Notes under the pieces: model-generated
Database searches by the model: none
Seen by the model: only the letters and a program-made list of their open reading frames with translations
What the model was told of the DNA's origin: nothing
Translations under genes and position numbers: made by a program
Shown here: piece after piece, positions 13,209 through 41,427 of the stretch
How positions within the stretch are numbered: position 1 is the stretch's first letter
Layout of the letters: each line of letters opens with the position of its first letter
NCBI RefSeq assembly: GCF_002868845.1
Contig: NZ_PKUB01000013.1
Location: 43,537-99,101 of the forward strand
Direction of reading: 5' to 3'
Source of the DNA: Desulfuromonas sp.
GTDB lineage: Bacteria; Desulfobacterota; Desulfuromonadia; Desulfuromonadales; BM501
Length of the DNA: 55,565 nucleotides

Positions 13209-13233
13209 GGCATGGTCGGTTGGTATGGATAAC

Positions 13234-16200
13234 TTACTTTACGACTGTGATGACCGCGCTGTTCTGTGCCTGTTCATTGGCATCGTCGGTCACCGTCAAG
13301 GTGAGGGTGTACGTGCCGGTTTTTTTGTACTTGTGAACGACCGTCGCGCCCGTATCGGCGGCGCCGTCACCGAAATCCCACTGAAAGCTGACCAGGGTGC
13401 CGTCGGGGTCGTACGATGCGGATCCGTCAAAGGTTGTCTCCTGTCTAACCAGCACGGTCCGGTCCGATCCTGCATCGGCGACCGGCGGGACGTTGACGCT
13501 GCCCTCATCGATGGTGACAGAGGTGGTGTCAGCGGCCGATGCCCCAGTCGGGTCGGTGACGGTCAGAACCACGGTGTAGACTCCTGCCGCCGTGTAGCTG
13601 TGACTGGGGTCCTGTTCCGTCGCCGTGGCGCCGTCGCCGAAGTCCCAAAGGTAGGTCAGTGGGTCCCCGTTCACATCGTAGCTGCCCGCACCGGAAAGAA
13701 ACACCGGGGCCTGGATGGACCCCGTGTAGGGACCGTTGGCCATGGCAACCGGCGGCGTGTTGACCGGGGGCGGGGGTTGGTACTCGGCGGCCAGGGTCGT
13801 TGCGGCGTTGAACCGGTCACTTGCTTCGCACACGATCGATATCGGGGCTTGCTCATCTCCCTGAAGGGTGATGAGCGCCTCGGCGGTGCCGCTGAACAGG
13901 GTATCCCAAATTCCGTCCGCGTCGAAGTCCCAGCGGTATTCAAGAGTTCCATCCCAGGTGGTGAACTGGTCCGGGTCGTTTACGTAGGCTGTTGCGGTCA
14001 ACTCGATTCCGGGGCGGGAAATAACCGACAAAAGGCCGACTTCGTCATTGGCGACATAGACGCTCTGGCCATTGGCCCGGGCATTCCTGGCGTAATTGGG
14101 CAAGAAAAGACTGCCTTTAAGGACCGGGTTGCCCGGATCGGTTACATCGATGATCTGCAGGCCCTGACCGTAGTCCGCCACATAAGCGAAGCCATCAGCG
14201 ACATCGACCCCTATGGCCGCACCGAGGGTGTCGAAGCTGCCGAGCGAAACAGGTTGAAGGGGGTCGGAGAGGTCCAGAATTTCAAGACCGTCGTAACGCT
14301 CGGCCACGTAGGCGAGCCCATCGGAAATAACCAGTTCGTCGGCGTAGCTTGGGGTGGCGTAGTTGGCGGCTATGAACGGGGCTGCCGGATCCGTCACGTC
14401 GACGATCTGAATGCCGCCGCCGAAATCGGAGACATAGGCATAAGTGCCCGAGACGAAGACGCTCAGGGTATAGGCCGGGGTGTCGACGCCGCCGACCAGA
14501 ACCGGGGAGAAGGGGTCGGAGATGTCGATGATCTGCAGTCCCTCCATGGCATCTGCCACGTAGGCGAAGTTGCCGACAACGTGAATCCCTTCGGCGGAAC
14601 CGGGGGTGTCTGCGAAGGCGACCTGGGCGGGTTGGGTCGGATCAGATACGTCCATGACGAGGAGGCCGCCGGCATCGGCGGCGAGATAGGCCAGGGATCC
14701 GGAGACCTGGACGTCGTGGGCGGGGGTCGAGGTCGGAATCTGGCCCACCAGGGCAAGTTGGGAGGGATTGGAGGTGTCCAGAATCTGCAGACCGCCGGTG
14801 CCGTCGGCCACGTAAGCGAGGTTCCCCGACAGGTCGACCCCGTAGGCTGTCCCGGGGGTATTGTAAGTGCCCGCCAGTTCGGTGAACATGACCTCTTTCT
14901 CGGAGACGTCCAGCAGGTCGTTTTGTGGCGGGTTGTTGTAGGAAACGGCCCAGATGTCTCGGGTCGCCTGGGCCGTCTGCCCGGCGCTGTCGCGCACCTC
15001 CATGCGAACCGTGTGGGAAAAGGTCCGGTCCAGGGATGTCAGGGGGAGAGGAAGTGTCAGGTCGGCGAGGCGGACGCCGTCCTGATAGTCGGCTAAGAAA
15101 AGGGTGCTGCCGTCCACGGCGACATGTATGGCCAGGCCCGAATTTTGGTAGGTGCCGATCGTAGTCGGCTGGGCGGGGTCGCTCAGATCGACCGCGAGGA
15201 CGCCCCAATCGGACGCGGCGAGGTAGCCGTAATCCCCGGAAATTGCCAGACTGCGAATCGTTTCTGTCGTGTCGAGTGCTCCGAAGGGGGCCGGGTTGGC
15301 CGGGTCGGTGATGTCGAGAATCTGGAGGCCGGCATCGTAGGCGCTCACATAGAGAAGGTTGTTGACGACCTTTACCTCTAGGGCGGTCCCGCCGGTGGCG
15401 TAGGAGGCGACGAGGAGGGGTTGGGCAGGGTTGGTGACATTGAAAACCTGCACTCCACCGAAGTTGTCGGCGACATAGGCGAAATTGCCGGAGACGGCAA
15501 CCCCGCTGGCATAACCGGGGGTGGCGGCGGCGCCGATCAGAACCGGGCTGGAGGGGGTGCTGACGTCCACCACCTGGAGGCCGGAGCTGCCTGCTGCCAG
15601 GTAGGCATAGTTGCCAGCCACGTTAAGGGAGAGGGGCGAGCTTGGCGGGGAGAGGACGTTCACCAGGGTCGGCGTCGCGGGGAAGGTGATGTCAATGATC
15701 TGAAACCCTCCTCCGGAGCTGGCAACGAAAAGATGATTGCCGACTGCCTGGAGGTCATAGGCGGATCCTGTCAGGGCCAGGCTGCCCACCACGGACGGGT
15801 TGGCTCGATCTTCGATGTGGAGGACCTGAAGGCCTCCGGAACCGCCGGCCACGTAGGCATAGCTGCCGACCACCTCGATCTTTCGCGCCTCCCCCGGGGT
15901 GTCGACAATGCTGTCCGGCAGGGCGAGCCCTTTGGGCAGGGCATAGGCATGGGCCAGGGCCTTTTCGGCGGCATAAGGGGTGTCCCAGGTTCCGTCGTCG
16001 TCGAAGTCCCAGCGGACCTGCAACTCGCCCGCCAGGTCTTCGGCATCGGAGACGGTGCCTGCGTCGAGTTGGATGACGAGGGTTTCCGAGGGGCCGTGCT
16101 GGTTTTCCGGGGTGACGGTGAAACGGGCCTGCGGCGGCAGATTCGATGCTGAAACAGAATAGTCTCTTGCAGTGCTTTGAATGGCGCCCAGCCTGTCGCG

Positions 16201-18048
16201 CAGTTCGACCCGGACGGTGTAGCTGCCCGGGGCGAGACCTGAGCGGGTGGTTTCCAGCGAGGGGGCGAAAGGGGTGTCCCAGGTTCCGTCGTCTTCGAAA
16301 TCCCAGCGGGCCTCGAGTGAAGAGGCGCCGTCCTCGATGTCGAGGCTGGAGGAGGCGTCGAAGGTGAAAAGGCTTTCGGAACTTCCTTCCGTTGGGGACA
16401 CGGTCAGTCCCGGCAAGGGCGGAGCGTCGGGCACCGTGCTGTCCGTTACGACGAGATCGGTGGGATTCAGCGCCTCTTCCCGGTTGCCGACCGAGTTGGT
16501 CCCCCGGGTCTCGATGGCGTAGAGGCCGTTCGGCAGGGGAGGGGTGGTGAAGGTGAACTCTTCCTCCCCCCAGTCGAAAATCCCGTCGACCGGTTGGGCA
16601 GGGATCCAGGGGCCGCCGTTGATGCGGTATTCCACTGCGGTGATGGTGTTGAGGGTGACGTCCGATATGAAGAGATTTCTGCTGGCCAGGGCCCGGTCGG
16701 TGGCCACGCCGGTAAAGGTGAAGGTCTCCGTCCCGGTGTACCCAAGAACGGCCGTCTCCGGAACGGTGTCGAGGGGGTCGAGAATCCCGTCCCCGTCGCT
16801 GTCCCGCCAGCCGATCTGACCGCCACTGTAGGGACCGATCGTTTCGTAAGTGGAGATCATGATGTCCGGAAGCCCTTCGCCGGCTCCCCAGAAATAACCG
16901 TTGCCATCATTGGTCTGGGCGTTGGCATTGATCACGTTCAGGTACCCTTCGCGTTCGATAGGGCTTCGGCATGCGTCGGGGCAGTACTGGTCGAGGGCGT
17001 TGAAAATGTGCATGGTTTCATGGCGCAGGGCGGCGCCGCCCCTGAAATCCGCGTTGAAGATCGTGGTCGAAGGGCCGCCCAGAGTCGCATACGCTCTCCC
17101 CGGACCGTTTCTGACGAGGACCGCATAGGCCCAGTCGGTTTGGTAAAGGTTGCGCAGGTCGTTGACGTAGGCATTGAGGTCGGCAGGCGCGGCGTTGGGC
17201 TTGCCGGATTTGCTGACTTCTTTGACGAAGGTGAAGGAGAGGCCTGCGTTCGGCTGGTCTTCTATGAATTGCTCGAGGGCCGCGGTGTTCAGGTCGAATG
17301 CGGGATCGATGGCGGCCTTGTCCCAGTCCCCGTCGTCGCCGGGAACGAAGAAGAAGCCGACGGCCACGTCCCCTGCCATGAAGAGGCTTGTGTCCGCGTA
17401 ACCGGCCCCCAGGGCGGTGCCGAAGTCGAGGGCCGGTTCATCGCCCGGCGCCATGCTGAGGCTCGAATCCGGAGATAGGGTTTCGATTACGGCGTCTGTT
17501 GGGCTGCCCTCCGCAGCATCCCCGGCAGGTTTCTGACTTTTACTGCGGCGATTTTCCAGGTAGTCGTGGTCGAGTTGCTTTCTTTGGGCCTTGGAAAGAC
17601 CCTCTCGAGAGGGGGGATGAACGGTGTCACGGAAGGGGGGAAGCTCATCAAAGGGGCCGGTCCATGGTTTGCGGCCCGGTTGGGCCTTGCGTTGATTCCA
17701 GGAGCGGACCGCGTCCCTGACCGAGTCGTCACGGTGGAGAAACGACCCGGGTTCCAGGGGGCCAATGGAGACCACTTCTACAAAAGGCAGCTCTGCAAGC
17801 CCTGGTATGATCTGGGACGATGTGCTGCCGATAAGGACACTCGGCGGATAGGTGCTGCGGATGCGTACTCCCGCCTTCTGGAGGGCTTTCCGGGCTACTG
17901 CCATCTGCCCGGGAGATTCGCTTTTGAGAACAATGAGAATGTGATCGGCCCCTGCAGAATGGGACTTGGCATCATTCGCACCGGCAGGTGGCGACAGGCA
18001 GACAAGGAAAACGAAAATGGATACCAGCAGGTAGAGTTTGCCTTTCAT
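13234..18048 (-). CDS. Giant secreted HExxH protein with PKD domains and two LVIVD propellers
   Basis: The product is a 1604-residue exported protein. Residues 1-24 are a Sec signal peptide (cleavage after PPAGA). Residues about 34-100 resemble an inhibitor-type propeptide. Residues about 200-410 look like a zinc metallopeptidase domain, with His343-Glu344-Thr-Met-His347 and Asp353 (HETMHIFNALD) fitting HExxHxxxxxD. Then come an Ig-like segment (about 425-525) and a PKD domain (about 545-635). A second PKD (about 640-1035) is split by seven 42-residue LVIVD repeats (720-1003). A third PKD region (about 1036-1425) is likewise interrupted by seven more repeats (1070-1345). Two final PKD domains end the protein. 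I infer a cell-surface or released protease or adhesin; the substrate is unknown. It has its own strong promoter, an AAGGAGGG ribosome site and its own terminator. Confidence 0.85.
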   Translation of the reverse strand: MKGKLYLLVSIFVFLVCLSPPAGANDAKSHSAGADHILIVLKSESPGQMAVARKALQKAGVRIRSTYPPSVLIGSTSSQIIPGLAELPFVEVVSIGPLEPGSFLHRDDSVRDAVRSWNQRKAQPGRKPWTGPFDELPPFRDTVHPPSREGLSKAQRKQLDHDYLENRRSKSQKPAGDAAEGSPTDAVIETLSPDSSLSMAPGDEPALDFGTALGAGYADTSLFMAGDVAVGFFFVPGDDGDWDKAAIDPAFDLNTAALEQFIEDQPNAGLSFTFVKEVSKSGKPNAAPADLNAYVNDLRNLYQTDWAYAVLVRNGPGRAYATLGGPSTTIFNADFRGGAALRHETMHIFNALDQYCPDACRSPIEREGYLNVINANAQTNDGNGYFWGAGEGLPDIMISTYETIGPYSGGQIGWRDSDGDGILDPLDTVPETAVLGYTGTETFTFTGVATDRALASRNLFISDVTLNTITAVEYRINGGPWIPAQPVDGIFDWGEEEFTFTTPPLPNGLYAIETRGTNSVGNREEALNPTDLVVTDSTVPDAPPLPGLTVSPTEGSSESLFTFDASSSLDIEDGASSLEARWDFEDDGTWDTPFAPSLETTRSGLAPGSYTVRVELRDRLGAIQSTARDYSVSASNLPPQARFTVTPENQHGPSETLVIQLDAGTVSDAEDLAGELQVRWDFDDDGTWDTPYAAEKALAHAYALPKGLALPDSIVDTPGEARKIEVVGSYAYVAGGSGGLQVLHIEDRANPSVVGSLALTGSAYDLQAVGNHLFVASSGGGFQIIDITFPATPTLVNVLSPPSSPLSLNVAGNYAYLAAGSSGLQVVDVSTPSSPVLIGAAATPGYASGVAVSGNFAYVADNFGGVQVFNVTNPAQPLLVASYATGGTALEVKVVNNLLYVSAYDAGLQILDITDPANPAPFGALDTTETIRSLAISGDYGYLAASDWGVLAVDLSDPAQPTTIGTYQNSGLAIHVAVDGSTLFLADYQDGVRLADLTLPLPLTSLDRTFSHTVRMEVRDSAGQTAQATRDIWAVSYNNPPQNDLLDVSEKEVMFTELAGTYNTPGTAYGVDLSGNLAYVADGTGGLQILDTSNPSQLALVGQIPTSTPAHDVQVSGSLAYLAADAGGLLVMDVSDPTQPAQVAFADTPGSAEGIHVVGNFAYVADAMEGLQIIDISDPFSPVLVGGVDTPAYTLSVFVSGTYAYVSDFGGGIQIVDVTDPAAPFIAANYATPSYADELVISDGLAYVAERYDGLEILDLSDPLQPVSLGSFDTLGAAIGVDVADGFAYVADYGQGLQIIDVTDPGNPVLKGSLFLPNYARNARANGQSVYVANDEVGLLSVISRPGIELTATAYVNDPDQFTTWDGTLEYRWDFDADGIWDTLFSGTAEALITLQGDEQAPISIVCEASDRFNAATTLAAEYQPPPPVNTPPVAMANGPYTGSIQAPVFLSGAGSYDVNGDPLTYLWDFGDGATATEQDPSHSYTAAGVYTVVLTVTDPTGASAADTTSVTIDEGSVNVPPVADAGSDRTVLVRQETTFDGSASYDPDGTLVSFQWDFGDGAADTGATVVHKYKKTGTYTLTLTVTDDANEQAQNSAVITVVK
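14014..14841 (-). repeat. Second LVIVD repeat block (about seven coding repeats)
   Basis: Seven tandem coding repeats of about 42 residues (protein residues about 1070-1345), with the recurring pattern G-x-x-AYVA-x4-GLQI-x-D-x-x-DP-x-x-P. Seven repeats fit one seven-bladed beta-propeller. The DNA copies have diverged and are recognisable mainly as protein. Confidence 0.85.
15040..15888 (-). repeat. First LVIVD repeat block (about seven coding repeats)
   Basis: Seven tandem repeats of about 42 residues (protein residues about 720-1003) with the same pattern as the second block. They lie between the first strands of a PKD domain (RWDFDDDGTWDT) and its last strands (HTVRMEVRDSAG), so the propeller appears inserted into that domain. 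Confidence 0.85.
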
Positions 18049-36315: not shown

Positions 36316-39300
36316 ATGAGATACCTGCTGACCCTGTTGCTGACCCTGTTCTTTGCGGCCCCGGGCGTCCTCCACGCCGCCATGGACAGCTACTGCAGCG
36401 CGCCCCCGTATGTGACCCGCACCGTGGCGCCGAACATCATGATTTTGATGGATAATTCCAACGACATGATGGATTCGGCGTACCCGGAAGACTACGACTC
36501 CAGCAAGGACTACATCGGCTATTTCCATCCGACGGGCTGCTACAGTTACTCGAGCAACAAGTTCGAGGAACTGCTCAACACCTCGGGGAGCCCCAGCCGC
36601 TCCTACCTTGCGACGGAAACCTGCCCCGCGGCCGCCCCTTTCCGCGGCAAACTGATGAACTGGGCGACGATGTCCCGGTTCGACGTGCTGCAGAAGGTTC
36701 TGATCGGTGGCAATTCCGCCTCCAAACAGGGAAACGCCCACACCCTGGTCAGCATCAGCGGCGCCAGTTGGCCGGACCGGAGCGATACGACCTCGGGCTG
36801 TGTTTTTCAGGTCAACAACGGCAACCTGACCATTACCGAGACGGTGCCCAATGCGTGTTCGCTTTTGGACAGCCCCCCGGTCCCCATTGCCATGGAGTCG
36901 TCAGACGTCCTGCCCGGGGACGTGGGCGAAGTCGCCCCCCGAAGCCTGGAGCTGCTCCTTTCCGACTATGCCCAAGCCGTCTCGGACGGGGCCAAGGGGG
37001 CCTTTGCTTCGGCTTCGGACTTCTGGGACAATCTGGAGTTGGTTCCGTCGGCCTGGGCGGGGGCCTGTTCCTCCATCACGGTCGGCTCTCTTAATGGAAC
37101 TGTCGGATCCCCCTTTTCCCTGACCCTGACCCTTCCTGAGAACGCGGCGAACAAGACGGCGACCTGGACGACCACCACCATGCCGGCTTGGCTCGGAAGC
37201 CCGACCTACAGCAAGTACAACAACAAACTCACCAACGGCGTCGCCACCTGGACGGGAACACCGACGGCCGCGGGGAGCTTCCCTTTTGAGGTCTCGGTGA
37301 CCTCCACGTCCTGCACCGGAACCAGCACCATCAGCGGCAACGTCGTCATCTCCCCCGAAGACCTGAAGATCAACCATGTCAGCCCCCTCCCCGACGGAAA
37401 CCTCGACAACCCTTACACCCTCGAACTCCACGGGCAGGGAGGGATCGGGGCCTTGAGCTGGATGGCCGCCGGGCTTCCGGCGGGCCTTTCGATCGGCACG
37501 GCCACCGTCGGGTCGGTGACGAACTACTACATCTCCGGGACCCCGACAGTCGCGGGGACCTCCACGGTGACCCTGACCCTCTCGGACAGCAGCGGCGACA
37601 GCCTGACCCAGGATTTCGAGCTCTCCATCGTCGAAGGGCTGACAGTCACGACCAACTCTCTGCCCGGCGGGCAGGAGGGAGAGCCCTATGCCACCACCCT
37701 GTCGGCACAAGGCGGCTCCCCTGCCTATACCTGGTCGATCGTCGCCGGATCCCTCCCCTCCGGGGTGAGCATGAATTCCTCCGGGGTCTTCAGCGGAACG
37801 ATCGCCGCCGGGGCGGCTGGGAGTTACCCGATCACCGTCCAGTTGCAGGACTCGGTCGGAGATGTCACGACGGCCGATTTCACCATCGAAGTCGTTACGG
37901 CCCTCGGCCATGTGGAGATCTTTTCCACATCCCCATTGCCGACCGCCTACAAGGGGGTTTTCTACAGCTACCAGATCGTGGCCACTGGAGGGTGCGAGCC
38001 ATACACCTGGTCGGTCTCCTCAGGAAGCCTGCCGTCCTGGATGAGCCTCTCTGCCACCGGTGTGCTCAGCGGCACTCCGGACAACAACAACGACATCACC
38101 TATGCCGACTTCGATATTTCGGTCGAGGGGTGCGGGGGGTGGGTCGACACGGTGACCTTTTCCATCACGTCGCTGAAAAAAGCGCCCGGCGCCACCAATC
38201 GCTCTGCTTCCTATACCGTCAAGGTCGTACTGGAAGAAGAGGTTTTCCAGGATTCAAACGGCAACGACATCTGGGATCAGGGTGAATTCATAGATGACGA
38301 TAGCGATGGTTTGTTTGAACCTGCGGATGGAGAGGTCAGGTTTGAGGATGATAACGGCAACGGCGTGTGGGACGGCAAGGTAGGGATTTTTCACAAATTC
38401 TGGGATGCGAACAACCCCAGGGCCCGCTGGGGGATGACCAAGTTCAAGAACCAGGGCGTCTCGACGATCGTCGAGGCCAATTCTTGCATCCCGGTGACGA
38501 CTGCGTCCTCGTTCTATACGGCGATTCAGAACGCCACCCCCTCCGATTCGTCTCCCCTGGCCGACGGACTCTACGGGGTCATCAACTACTACGGGTTCGA
38601 CAACCCCTACGGGTTGGGGTACAGCGGCTGCACCAACAGCGACCCCATCGACGAGGTGCCCTGCAGGAAGAACTACGTGCTGGTCATCAGCTCCGGCACC
38701 GACGTAAGCGGCACTGACTTTTCCGCCACCGCCGACTGCACTGCCAGCGATCCCCTGGAGCAGAACGCCTGCTACGGCTACACCACCGACCTGAGAGACC
38801 CCGATTCCGCCGGGACGCAGAACGTGCACACTTTTATCGTCAACACCATGGGGACCAGCAACAACACGGAACTCGAGGCGGCGGCCCTCGCGGGAGGGGG
38901 GGGGTATTACCAGGCGGCGAGCGGTTCCGACCTGGAGACGGCACTGATCCAGGCCCTGGAGGACATCCTCGCCCAGGCCGCCTCGGGGACGGCGGTCTCC
39001 GTTCTCACCACCTCGTCGCGGGGAATCGGCTCCATGATCCAGGCCTACTTTCTGCCGGTCAAGCAGGAGGGGGAGAGGGAGGTCTCCTGGGTCGGGTACA
39101 CGCAGAACCTGTGGATCGACCCCCAGGACAACCTGCGCGAGGACTCCCCCACCGTCGACCACGAACTGGAACTTGACAACGACAAGGTCGTGCGCTTCTT
39201 CTTCGACGAAAGCGTCAACGAATCGAAGGCCGCCCTGTTCGAAACCGACGCCGACGGCACCGGCGGGGACCTGGGAACCTGCTCCGACTATGATCTTGTC

Positions 39301-41427
39301 ACCTTCTCGGACATCAGCTACAACTGGGAGGGGGGGGAGGCCCTCGCCCTTACGGACCCTTCGGACCGCACCATTTTCACCTCGAAGAAGCTCCTCCGGG
39401 TCGACAGTTCCGATGCGACGACGGCAACGACCTTTTCCCCCACGCTATTCACGACGGGCATGGACTCTGATCTGGTCAATGCGCTGAATGCCGGCGCCGG
39501 CGCCTTCACCGCCAACGAGATCATCGGCTATATCCGGGGCGAATGTCTGGAAACCGGGGTGTCGGGGGACAGCGCCTGCGGGGCGACTCCCAACGGCACC
39601 TTCCGTGACCGGCGGATCGGGGTGAGCGGCGGCGACACCAACGGCAACGTCTGGAAACTCGGCGACGTCATCAGTTCGACCCCCAAGGTCCTCTCCGGAA
39701 CGCCGGCCAACACCTACCACATCGACTACGGCGACAACACTTACTATCAGTATGTCTCCAGCGATACCTACAAACATCGCTCCTCCATCGCTTTCGTCGG
39801 CGCCAACGACGGCATGCTCCACGCGTTCCGGGTCGGTTATCTGGTCGACAGTGGTCTGGCTGAGGGGGTCAAGGCCAAGTTCCAGAATGCCTATGGCGTC
39901 ACCGCCGCGGCCACAGCCACCGACAAACTCGGGGAGGAGGTCTGGGGCTATATCCCCTACAATGCCTTGCCCTACCTGCAGTACCTCGCCGACCCCGATT
40001 ACGGCAGTTGCCACATCTACTACAACGATCTCTCGGTGCGCCTGGTCGATGCCAGCCTCGGCTGCGACACCGCAGTCGATGCTTCCTGCGACGACCCTGG
40101 CGAAGCCCGTAAAGCGGGGAGCTGGAAGACGGTCCTGATCGGCGGCATGCGCTTCGGAGGCGCCTGCGACGGGGGCAGTCCCACACCCCCGCTGGCCGGA
40201 ACCGGGTACTCGTCCTATTACGCCATCGACATCACCGATCCGGAGTCCCCGGTGCCGATGTGGGAGTTTTCCCATGCCGACATGGGCTTTGCCACCACCT
40301 TTCCCTCCATCATCCGAACCGGCGGCAAGACGACGAACGGAAACTGGTACCTGGCTATCGGCTCGGGGTCTACGGACCAACCCAAAAGCCGCATCGACCT
40401 CACCCAGGACATCGGTCGCTCCGGTACCGGCTACGTCTTTCTGCTCGACCTCAAAACCGGGGCCCTGGCGAAGAAGATCAGTCTCCACGACGGCAACGCC
40501 GACGTCGACGACAACCACATCGTCGGGGACATCCTCGCCATCGACAAAGACAAGGACTACGTTTCGGAGAAGATCTATTTCGGCACGTCCTACGATGACG
40601 GCTCTGGGACCTGGAAAGGAAAGCTCTTCGCCATCGACATCCCCGACCAGGACCTCACAGCGGCCTGGGCCCCCAACGTCGTGTCGCTGTTCGAAGATGC
40701 CTATCCCTTTACGGCATCTCCCGACGCCACCCGTGACTCCGTAGGAACGACCTGGGTCTATGCCGGCTCCGGCAAGTATTTCAGCGACCTCGACGAGAGT
40801 GACACGTCTGACCAGATCTTCTTTGGTCTGAAGGATCTTTCCACGATTACTTACCCCCTGGTCGCCACGGATCTCGACGACCAGTCGGCGGTGACCACGA
40901 CGGGGACGGTCACCGGAACCACAAGTGTGTGCCTCTACGACTCGGCCGATAACGATTTTTCGATGCAGGACCTTGTGACCTCGGTAAGCGGCACCGAGGC
41001 GGCCGCCTCCGACACCGGCTGGCGGTTGACCCTTTCCGGCGGGGAGCGGATGATCACCCGTCCCCTGGCGGTCGGCGGTCTGGTCGACTTCCTGACCTAC
41101 AAGCCGAGTTCCGATCCCTGCTCCTACGGGGGGAATTCGTACCTGTACGCCGTCGGCTACACGAGCGGCGTCGCACCTCCGAGCGTGGCGATCCGCGCCC
41201 CGGATACGACCAACGGTGCCACCGAAGGGACGGTGACGGTGAATCGCGGCATTCTGCTTGGCCCCGGCGCCCCCCCCACGGGGGAGGCGATCATTATCCC
41301 GCCACCCAAGGAAGGCCAGGAGCAGTTGAAGAAAAAGATCCAGATCGCCACCGGGGTCATTGTCGAGGCGGAGAACACTCCCGTACTGTCGGTTATCTCC
41401 AATGTGATCCACTGGCTGAAGAAATAG
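36316..41427 (+). CDS. PilY1-like pilus tip adhesin with Ig-like insertion
   Basis: A 1703-residue exported protein. Residues 1-21 are a signal peptide (cleavage near VLHAA). A von Willebrand A-like start (NIMILMDNSNDM, residues about 40-51) is followed by about four putative-Ig (He_PIG) repeats at about 250-625, each with the GLPAGLSI or SGTP-type signature. An Asp-rich DSNGNDIWDQGEFIDDDSDG stretch comes next (about 645-690), and then the rest of the A domain (NYVLVISSGTD). The C-terminal PilY1 beta-propeller covers about 1000-1620, with GDVISSTPKVL, FVGANDGMLHAFRVG and a calcium-type loop DKDKDYVSEKIYF near 1411. PilY1 proteins sit at the pilus tip and are needed for assembly, adhesion and surface sensing. 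It is the last gene of the minor-pilin operon, followed by a terminator. Confidence 0.9.
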   Translation: MRYLLTLLLTLFFAAPGVLHAAMDSYCSAPPYVTRTVAPNIMILMDNSNDMMDSAYPEDYDSSKDYIGYFHPTGCYSYSSNKFEELLNTSGSPSRSYLATETCPAAAPFRGKLMNWATMSRFDVLQKVLIGGNSASKQGNAHTLVSISGASWPDRSDTTSGCVFQVNNGNLTITETVPNACSLLDSPPVPIAMESSDVLPGDVGEVAPRSLELLLSDYAQAVSDGAKGAFASASDFWDNLELVPSAWAGACSSITVGSLNGTVGSPFSLTLTLPENAANKTATWTTTTMPAWLGSPTYSKYNNKLTNGVATWTGTPTAAGSFPFEVSVTSTSCTGTSTISGNVVISPEDLKINHVSPLPDGNLDNPYTLELHGQGGIGALSWMAAGLPAGLSIGTATVGSVTNYYISGTPTVAGTSTVTLTLSDSSGDSLTQDFELSIVEGLTVTTNSLPGGQEGEPYATTLSAQGGSPAYTWSIVAGSLPSGVSMNSSGVFSGTIAAGAAGSYPITVQLQDSVGDVTTADFTIEVVTALGHVEIFSTSPLPTAYKGVFYSYQIVATGGCEPYTWSVSSGSLPSWMSLSATGVLSGTPDNNNDITYADFDISVEGCGGWVDTVTFSITSLKKAPGATNRSASYTVKVVLEEEVFQDSNGNDIWDQGEFIDDDSDGLFEPADGEVRFEDDNGNGVWDGKVGIFHKFWDANNPRARWGMTKFKNQGVSTIVEANSCIPVTTASSFYTAIQNATPSDSSPLADGLYGVINYYGFDNPYGLGYSGCTNSDPIDEVPCRKNYVLVISSGTDVSGTDFSATADCTASDPLEQNACYGYTTDLRDPDSAGTQNVHTFIVNTMGTSNNTELEAAALAGGGGYYQAASGSDLETALIQALEDILAQAASGTAVSVLTTSSRGIGSMIQAYFLPVKQEGEREVSWVGYTQNLWIDPQDNLREDSPTVDHELELDNDKVVRFFFDESVNESKAALFETDADGTGGDLGTCSDYDLVTFSDISYNWEGGEALALTDPSDRTIFTSKKLLRVDSSDATTATTFSPTLFTTGMDSDLVNALNAGAGAFTANEIIGYIRGECLETGVSGDSACGATPNGTFRDRRIGVSGGDTNGNVWKLGDVISSTPKVLSGTPANTYHIDYGDNTYYQYVSSDTYKHRSSIAFVGANDGMLHAFRVGYLVDSGLAEGVKAKFQNAYGVTAAATATDKLGEEVWGYIPYNALPYLQYLADPDYGSCHIYYNDLSVRLVDASLGCDTAVDASCDDPGEARKAGSWKTVLIGGMRFGGACDGGSPTPPLAGTGYSSYYAIDITDPESPVPMWEFSHADMGFATTFPSIIRTGGKTTNGNWYLAIGSGSTDQPKSRIDLTQDIGRSGTGYVFLLDLKTGALAKKISLHDGNADVDDNHIVGDILAIDKDKDYVSEKIYFGTSYDDGSGTWKGKLFAIDIPDQDLTAAWAPNVVSLFEDAYPFTASPDATRDSVGTTWVYAGSGKYFSDLDESDTSDQIFFGLKDLSTITYPLVATDLDDQSAVTTTGTVTGTTSVCLYDSADNDFSMQDLVTSVSGTEAAASDTGWRLTLSGGERMITRPLAVGGLVDFLTYKPSSDPCSYGGNSYLYAVGYTSGVAPPSVAIRAPDTTNGATEGTVTVNRGILLGPGAPPTGEAIIIPPPKEGQEQLKKKIQIATGVIVEAENTPVLSVISNVIHWLKK

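Follow-up and report, generated by a model that had tools for sequence, protein, structure and literature searches.

Repeats of the LVIVD type (Pfam PF08309) have been described previously (PMC2447325). Surface proteins that contain them are secreted or surface-located and are built of 42-aa repeats that form seven-bladed propellers. A propeller and a PKD domain are found within one protein in 1l0q, a Methanosarcina surface-layer protein with a propeller and then a complete PKD domain in series. Among zinc peptidases, clostridial collagenase ColH has a peptidase head with PKD domains at its C-terminus, and snapalysin (M7; 1c7k, 4hx3) is a stand-alone enzyme of ~132 aa with a HExxHxxGxxD-type motif. 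The general metzincin motif is HExxHxxG/NxxH/D; Asp is the last ligand in snapalysins, and Asn at the Gly position is known in the lower pappalysins (PMC12237041). Igalysin (IgA peptidase M64), whose motif is HExxHxxxGxxD, also has Asp as its third ligand, together with a Tyr at Asp+2 and all-beta domains after the catalytic domain (PMC12237041).

The gene of the protein considered here, P0001, lies within a window of 55,565 nucleotides from Desulfuromonas sp. (the whole stretch of DNA that was analyzed), where the open reading frame listing and translation place it at 13234-18048 on the minus strand. The clear Pfam matches of the protein are restricted to LVIVD repeats and PKD domains, and no Pfam family was matched by residues 1-540. 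Its parts, from the N-terminus, are arranged as follows.

13234..18048, minus strand: open reading frame of 1604 aa (P0001), from the translation, with near-full-length homologues L051 and L139
17977..18048, minus strand: Sec signal peptide, approximately residues 1-24, read from the sequence MKGKLYLLVSIFVFLVCLSPPAGA
17749..17949, minus strand: N-terminal beta-alpha-beta-beta-alpha-beta module, residues 34-100, a possible prodomain (weak AlphaFold2 model, pLDDT about 50-66)
16759..17436, minus strand: metzincin-like, putatively catalytic head, residues 205-430 (58-60% identity among the three full-length homologues; seven-head alignment)
16984..17022, minus strand: zinc motif HExxHxxNxxD with Tyr at Asp+2, HETMHIFNALDQY, residues 343-355 (H, E, H, D and Y invariant in 7 heads)
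16855..16866, minus strand: candidate Met-turn DIMI, residues 395-398, with Met397 (Met aligned or nearly so in 7 heads, as DIM/VMRD/CLM)
16777..16803, minus strand: calcium-binding-type loop DSDGDGILD, residues 416-424, by sequence, retained in L051 and L139
16429..16758, minus strand: Ig-like (Big-type) domain, residues 431-540 (weak Big_7/Big_13 matches to the head alignment)
16153..16416, minus strand: PKD1, complete, residues 545-632 (PKD profile positions 7-84, 57 bits)
15940..16137, minus strand: PKD2 5' part (strands A to E), residues 638-703 (PKD profile positions 11-58; z=21 against the PKD1 5' part)
15034..15927, minus strand: LVIVD beta-propeller 1, seven blades, residues 708-1005 (Pfam LVIVD; AlphaFold2)
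14938..15027, minus strand: PKD2 3' part (strands F and G), residues 1008-1037 (PKD profile positions 61-82; z=11.5 against the PKD1 3' part)
14890..14937, minus strand: PKD3 strand A (NNPPQNDLLDVSEKEV), residues 1038-1053, which comes after PKD2 as NLPPQ comes after PKD1 and is too short for a profile match
14014..14889, minus strand: LVIVD beta-propeller 2, seven blades, residues 1054-1345 (Pfam LVIVD; AlphaFold2; Z 36.4 to 7-bladed propellers)
13777..14013, minus strand: PKD3 strands B to G, residues 1346-1424 (z=11.9 against PKD1; profile positions 32-49)
13507..13761, minus strand: PKD4, complete, residues 1430-1514 (PKD_4/PKD match; similarity to the ColH PKD)
13243..13494, minus strand: PKD5, complete, residues 1519-1602 (PKD_4 best stretch)

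No lipobox is seen in the signal peptide as read from its sequence, and the C-terminus of P0001 lacks an evident anchor. The N-terminal module is found in all homologues, head-only ones included; its reading as an I9-like prodomain was rejected, as there is no Pfam match. Assignment of the Big-type domain is aided by homologue L139, in which Big_7 matches with E=0.0035. PKD1, PKD4, and PKD5 each match the PKD profile (PF00801/PF18911) as a single stretch. A 623-aa frame (13225-15096, plus strand) is open antisense to the P0001 gene; long antisense open frames are common in GC-rich DNA, and this one is not counted as a gene. Elsewhere in the window, the reading frame upstream of the P0001 gene (18239-19240, minus strand) matches an SprT-like zinc-peptidase domain, and a 1703-aa reading frame (36316-41427, plus strand), in which He_PIG domains are accompanied by a weak match to the PilY1 propeller, probably encodes a pilus-tip-type adhesin.

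The LVIVD model matches P0001 in 12 stretches (E=5.5e-106, above the Pfam cut-off), and a profile of our own resolves 14 blades. These form two seven-blade blocks, as the initial annotation had proposed, and the period is 42 aa. AlphaFold2 (AF2) was run on residues 540-1430, using a two-row alignment in which one homologue formed the other row. Both blocks are modelled at pLDDT mostly 70-93, each with six complete four-strand blades and a seventh blade of three strands. In block 2 this last blade is closed by a strand at residues 1053-1062, ahead of the first blade; in block 1 the stretch that matches the closing strand falls in a low-confidence part of the model. When block 2 is superposed on 7-bladed propellers, Z is 36.4 and the rmsd is 1.7 over 265-268 residues, and the top Foldseek rows are multi-propeller proteins. 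(The choice-of-anchor B model, TIGR04312, scores 83.3 bits, under its 100-bit cut-off.) The modelling confirms both blocks as predicted closed seven-bladed propellers. Because the seventh blade is short and its outer strand can be supplied by the N-terminal stretch, the entry and exit of each propeller would lie side by side, as insertion into a loop needs. Within P0001, propeller 1 resembles propeller 2 no more than either resembles the propellers of the other proteins (33-37% identity), and so there is no sign of a recent duplication.

Unlike the known LVIVD-repeat surface proteins, P0001 appears to carry each propeller inside a PKD domain, behind the peptidase-like head. The initial annotation had placed each block between the two halves of one PKD domain, a description that fits block 1; block 2 instead has one strand on one side and the rest of the domain on the other. 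That annotation made no mention of PKD1, complete ahead of the nested region, or of the two complete PKDs behind it. Block 1 is bounded by RWDFDDDGTWDT..HAY (residues 638-703) and SHTVRMEVRD..NNPPQ (residues 1010-1042). On a PKD profile of 84 positions, for which the fetched loci supplied several hundred PKDs, the 5' flank of this block covers positions 11-58 (28.8 bits) and the 3' flank covers positions 61-82 (11.7 bits), so that at the sequence level the two flanks are complementary and nearly gapless. In addition, an alignment of the 3' flank with the corresponding part of PKD1 (SYTVRVELRDRLGAIQSTARDYSVSASNLPPQ versus SHTVRMEVRDSAGQTAQATRDIWAVSYNNPPQ) runs up to the NxPPQ that opens the next PKD, at z=11.5 and with none of 5000 shuffles as good. 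The complementary split of the profile and the alignment with PKD1 together argue that propeller 1 is inserted in the E-F turn of PKD2.

For propeller 2, the block is preceded by NNPPQNDLLDVSEKEV (NNPPQ..), at the place expected for strand A of the next PKD, and is followed by GIELTATAYVNDPD..RWDFDADGIWDT..ISIVCEASD, which matches PKD1 strands B to G (z=11.9). This arrangement suggests an insertion in the A-B loop of PKD3, a case that is weaker than that for PKD2 since strand A, with only ~16 poorly conserved residues, is unscorably short. PKD3 itself is diverged, and alone scores 4.7-9.9 bits on the PKD profile. The insertion sites of the two propellers differ, being the E-F loop in PKD2 and the A-B loop in PKD3. 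Since the A-B and E-F loops of an Ig-like sandwich share one end of the domain, the two propellers would point out on the same side. Domain-in-domain insertion occurring twice, as first proposed from the sequence, is supported by the complementary profile coverage, by the similarity of PKD to PKD, and by the retention of both sites in two other genomes. P0001 resembles 1l0q in having propeller and PKD in one protein, but its propellers are nested, and only the PKD part of 1l0q is matched. No report of PKD-nested propellers was found in the open-access literature. Among the loci fetched, LVIVD arrays flanked by partial PKD matches are seen only in P0001, L051, and L139.

On the nested reading, the parts of PKD2 and of PKD3 would each reassemble into a whole PKD domain. 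Alternatively, the parts could be the worn remnants of tandem PKDs, now mere linkers between propellers in a row, and the divergence of PKD3 and the low AF2 confidence of all PKD parts would agree with this. Every PKD part has a pLDDT below 50, and the model, which does build both propellers, neither supports nor refutes reassembly. However, the intact PKD1 is just as low in the same model, which makes the two-row alignment the more likely cause of the low values. The PKD2 parts, unlike linkers, are among the better conserved regions of the protein in the three genomes, and their coverage of the PKD profile is complementary and nearly gapless. We consider it quite unlikely that the parts are linkers, and reassembled PKD domains remain the preferred reading.

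The nested order is also seen outside of this organism. Among 84,980 species genomes there is one near-full-length relative, L051 (2578 aa), encoded by a Nitrospirae MAG; a second relative with the full architecture, L139 (1786 aa, genome G545), was found among 395 genomes of the phylum of L051. In both, the head and the Big-type domain are present and each nested propeller occupies the site that it has in P0001; PKD1 is missing from L139. The split-PKD2 profile pattern is present in L051 as well, and in G545 it is weaker for the short 3' flank. After PKD3 the C-termini of the three proteins are wholly different: P0001 continues with two PKDs, L051 with MopE-type and He_PIG domains, and L139 with He_PIG, Calx-beta, and CARDB domains. 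The finding of a P0001-type gene in just 1 of the 136 genomes of the order might have indicated an artefact of assembly or gene fusion in a single genome. This explanation is refuted by the homologues, which have the same order and insertion sites in two independent genomes of another phylum at 34-40% identity, and the reading frame is open throughout; the chance that it is correct is negligible. No gene neighbourhood is common to the P0001, L051, and L139 loci, and no substrate was found. Searches of plasmids and of viral contigs gave no relative of the head.

Compared in pairs, the three homologues are 58-60% identical in the head and 40-60% in the two parts of PKD2; for PKD3 strands B-G the values are 38-46%, and for the propellers 33-39%. 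PKD3 strand A, at 14-36%, is the exception to the conservation of the PKDs. The higher values of the PKD parts (38-60%) and the head relative to the propellers argue that the shell is under stronger constraint than its inserts. The faster divergence of the propellers fits with changing ligands; it could also mean that constraint on the propellers is looser.

Other LVIVD proteins are present in this genome and in the order. In the third LVIVD giant of the P0001 genome (L144:2402-8410, minus strand; 2002 aa), two propeller blocks are separated by a laminin-G-type domain and TSP3 repeats. A family of LVIVD proteins that are about 700-1060 aa long and begin with a membrane segment (L145:4776-7895, plus strand; L032-L050; L146-L150) occurs in many genomes of the order, and by eye the flanks of their propeller array look like the halves of a single Ig/TIG-like domain. 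No significant Pfam match to TIG was obtained with these flanks, either separate or joined; a TIG domain split by propellers in these membrane proteins is a lead.

The metallopeptidase-like head that was originally recognized in P0001 has HETMH at residues 343-347, conserved in the relatives. The longer segment HETMHIFNALD conforms to the metzincin motif, with Asn at the position of the motif Gly. All seven aligned heads keep the HExxHxFxxxDxY residues and, farther on, a methionine. In the PDB, the head profile matches the Streptomyces zinc protease 1c7k best, which has HExxHxxGxxD; the match is local and marginal (E=0.038), and snapalysin differs in its small size, its stand-alone form, and its Gly in place of the Asn of P0001. 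P0001 does not match the Pfam/NCBIfam models of Peptidase_M7 (snapalysin), and distant heads match Peptidase_M7 and Reprolysin weakly, below the cut-offs. P0001 shares the Asp ligand, the Tyr at Asp+2, and the all-beta domains that follow with igalysin; by the motif criterion it is not a member of M64, since the head motif is without the extra residue of HExxHxxxGxxD. ColH PKDs are matched by PKD4-5 (E=5.5e-33), but the likeness is limited to the PKDs, with no match for the head, and ColH has no nested propellers. An AF2 model of the head from a two-row alignment has a pLDDT of 37. By its motif, the head fits a metzincin-like peptidase with an Asp ligand, similar to the snapalysins.

With a profile made from two heads, shorter relatives (603 and 640 aa) that have no propellers were identified in another family of the same phylum. 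The profile also found distant heads (E about 4e-7 to 5e-8) that are joined to other repeat domains: L140 has hemopexin, L142 has FG-GAP, and L141 has unassigned repeats. The joining of distant heads to hemopexin and FG-GAP propellers fits a recurring pairing of peptidase and propeller. In L140 (2451-4817, plus strand), hemopexin repeats apparently interrupt the catalytic domain, where they separate its N-terminal strands from the HETGHIFGAPDEY helix, and more of them follow that domain. This would be a further nested-propeller arrangement among these peptidases.

The conservation of the active-site motif in seven heads favours an enzyme over an adhesin. The main rival is nevertheless that P0001 is an adhesin or scaffold whose head is catalytically dead or non-proteolytic; PKD domains, like propellers, are a typical component of surface binding proteins, and P0001 has Asn where the motif has Gly. 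We regard this as doubtful, if deserving of weight. The invariance of five active-site residues in 7 of 7 heads argues against it without excluding it, the same Asn is known in lower pappalysins (PMC12237041), and head-only relatives exist that have no propeller at all.

Our favored reading, which we hold to be probable, is that P0001 is a secreted Asp-metzincin endopeptidase in which a PKD spine holds two LVIVD propellers as binding modules. The protein would be a metzincin-type zinc endopeptidase that has no anchor and uses Asp as its third ligand. Behind its head there would be an Ig-like stack of one Big-type domain and then five PKDs, with one seven-bladed propeller sitting in the E-F loop of PKD2 and the other in the A-B loop of PKD3. 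This stack would serve as a spine that displays both propellers on one side, beside the catalytic head. The propellers may bind the substrate or a partner, and the head would then cut the bound target.

Every part of P0001 is of a known domain kind. What is unusual is the double nesting, its two different sites, its retention across phyla, and a peptidase-like head that no family model covers; the head points to an uncharacterised peptidase family that has no Pfam model. If the PKDs reassemble, ring domains of ~290 residues lie in two different loops of an ~85-residue sandwich and have been kept there over a phylum-level distance, which would be useful for the understanding of domain insertion and for protein design. 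More tentatively, and with the odds against it, there may be an undescribed Asp-metzincin family in which ring-closed propellers have been repeatedly inserted into loops of other domains, LVIVD into PKD in P0001 and hemopexin into the catalytic domain in L140. If that is true, beta-sandwich loops would be general docking sites for propellers, yielding modular substrate-capture enzymes.
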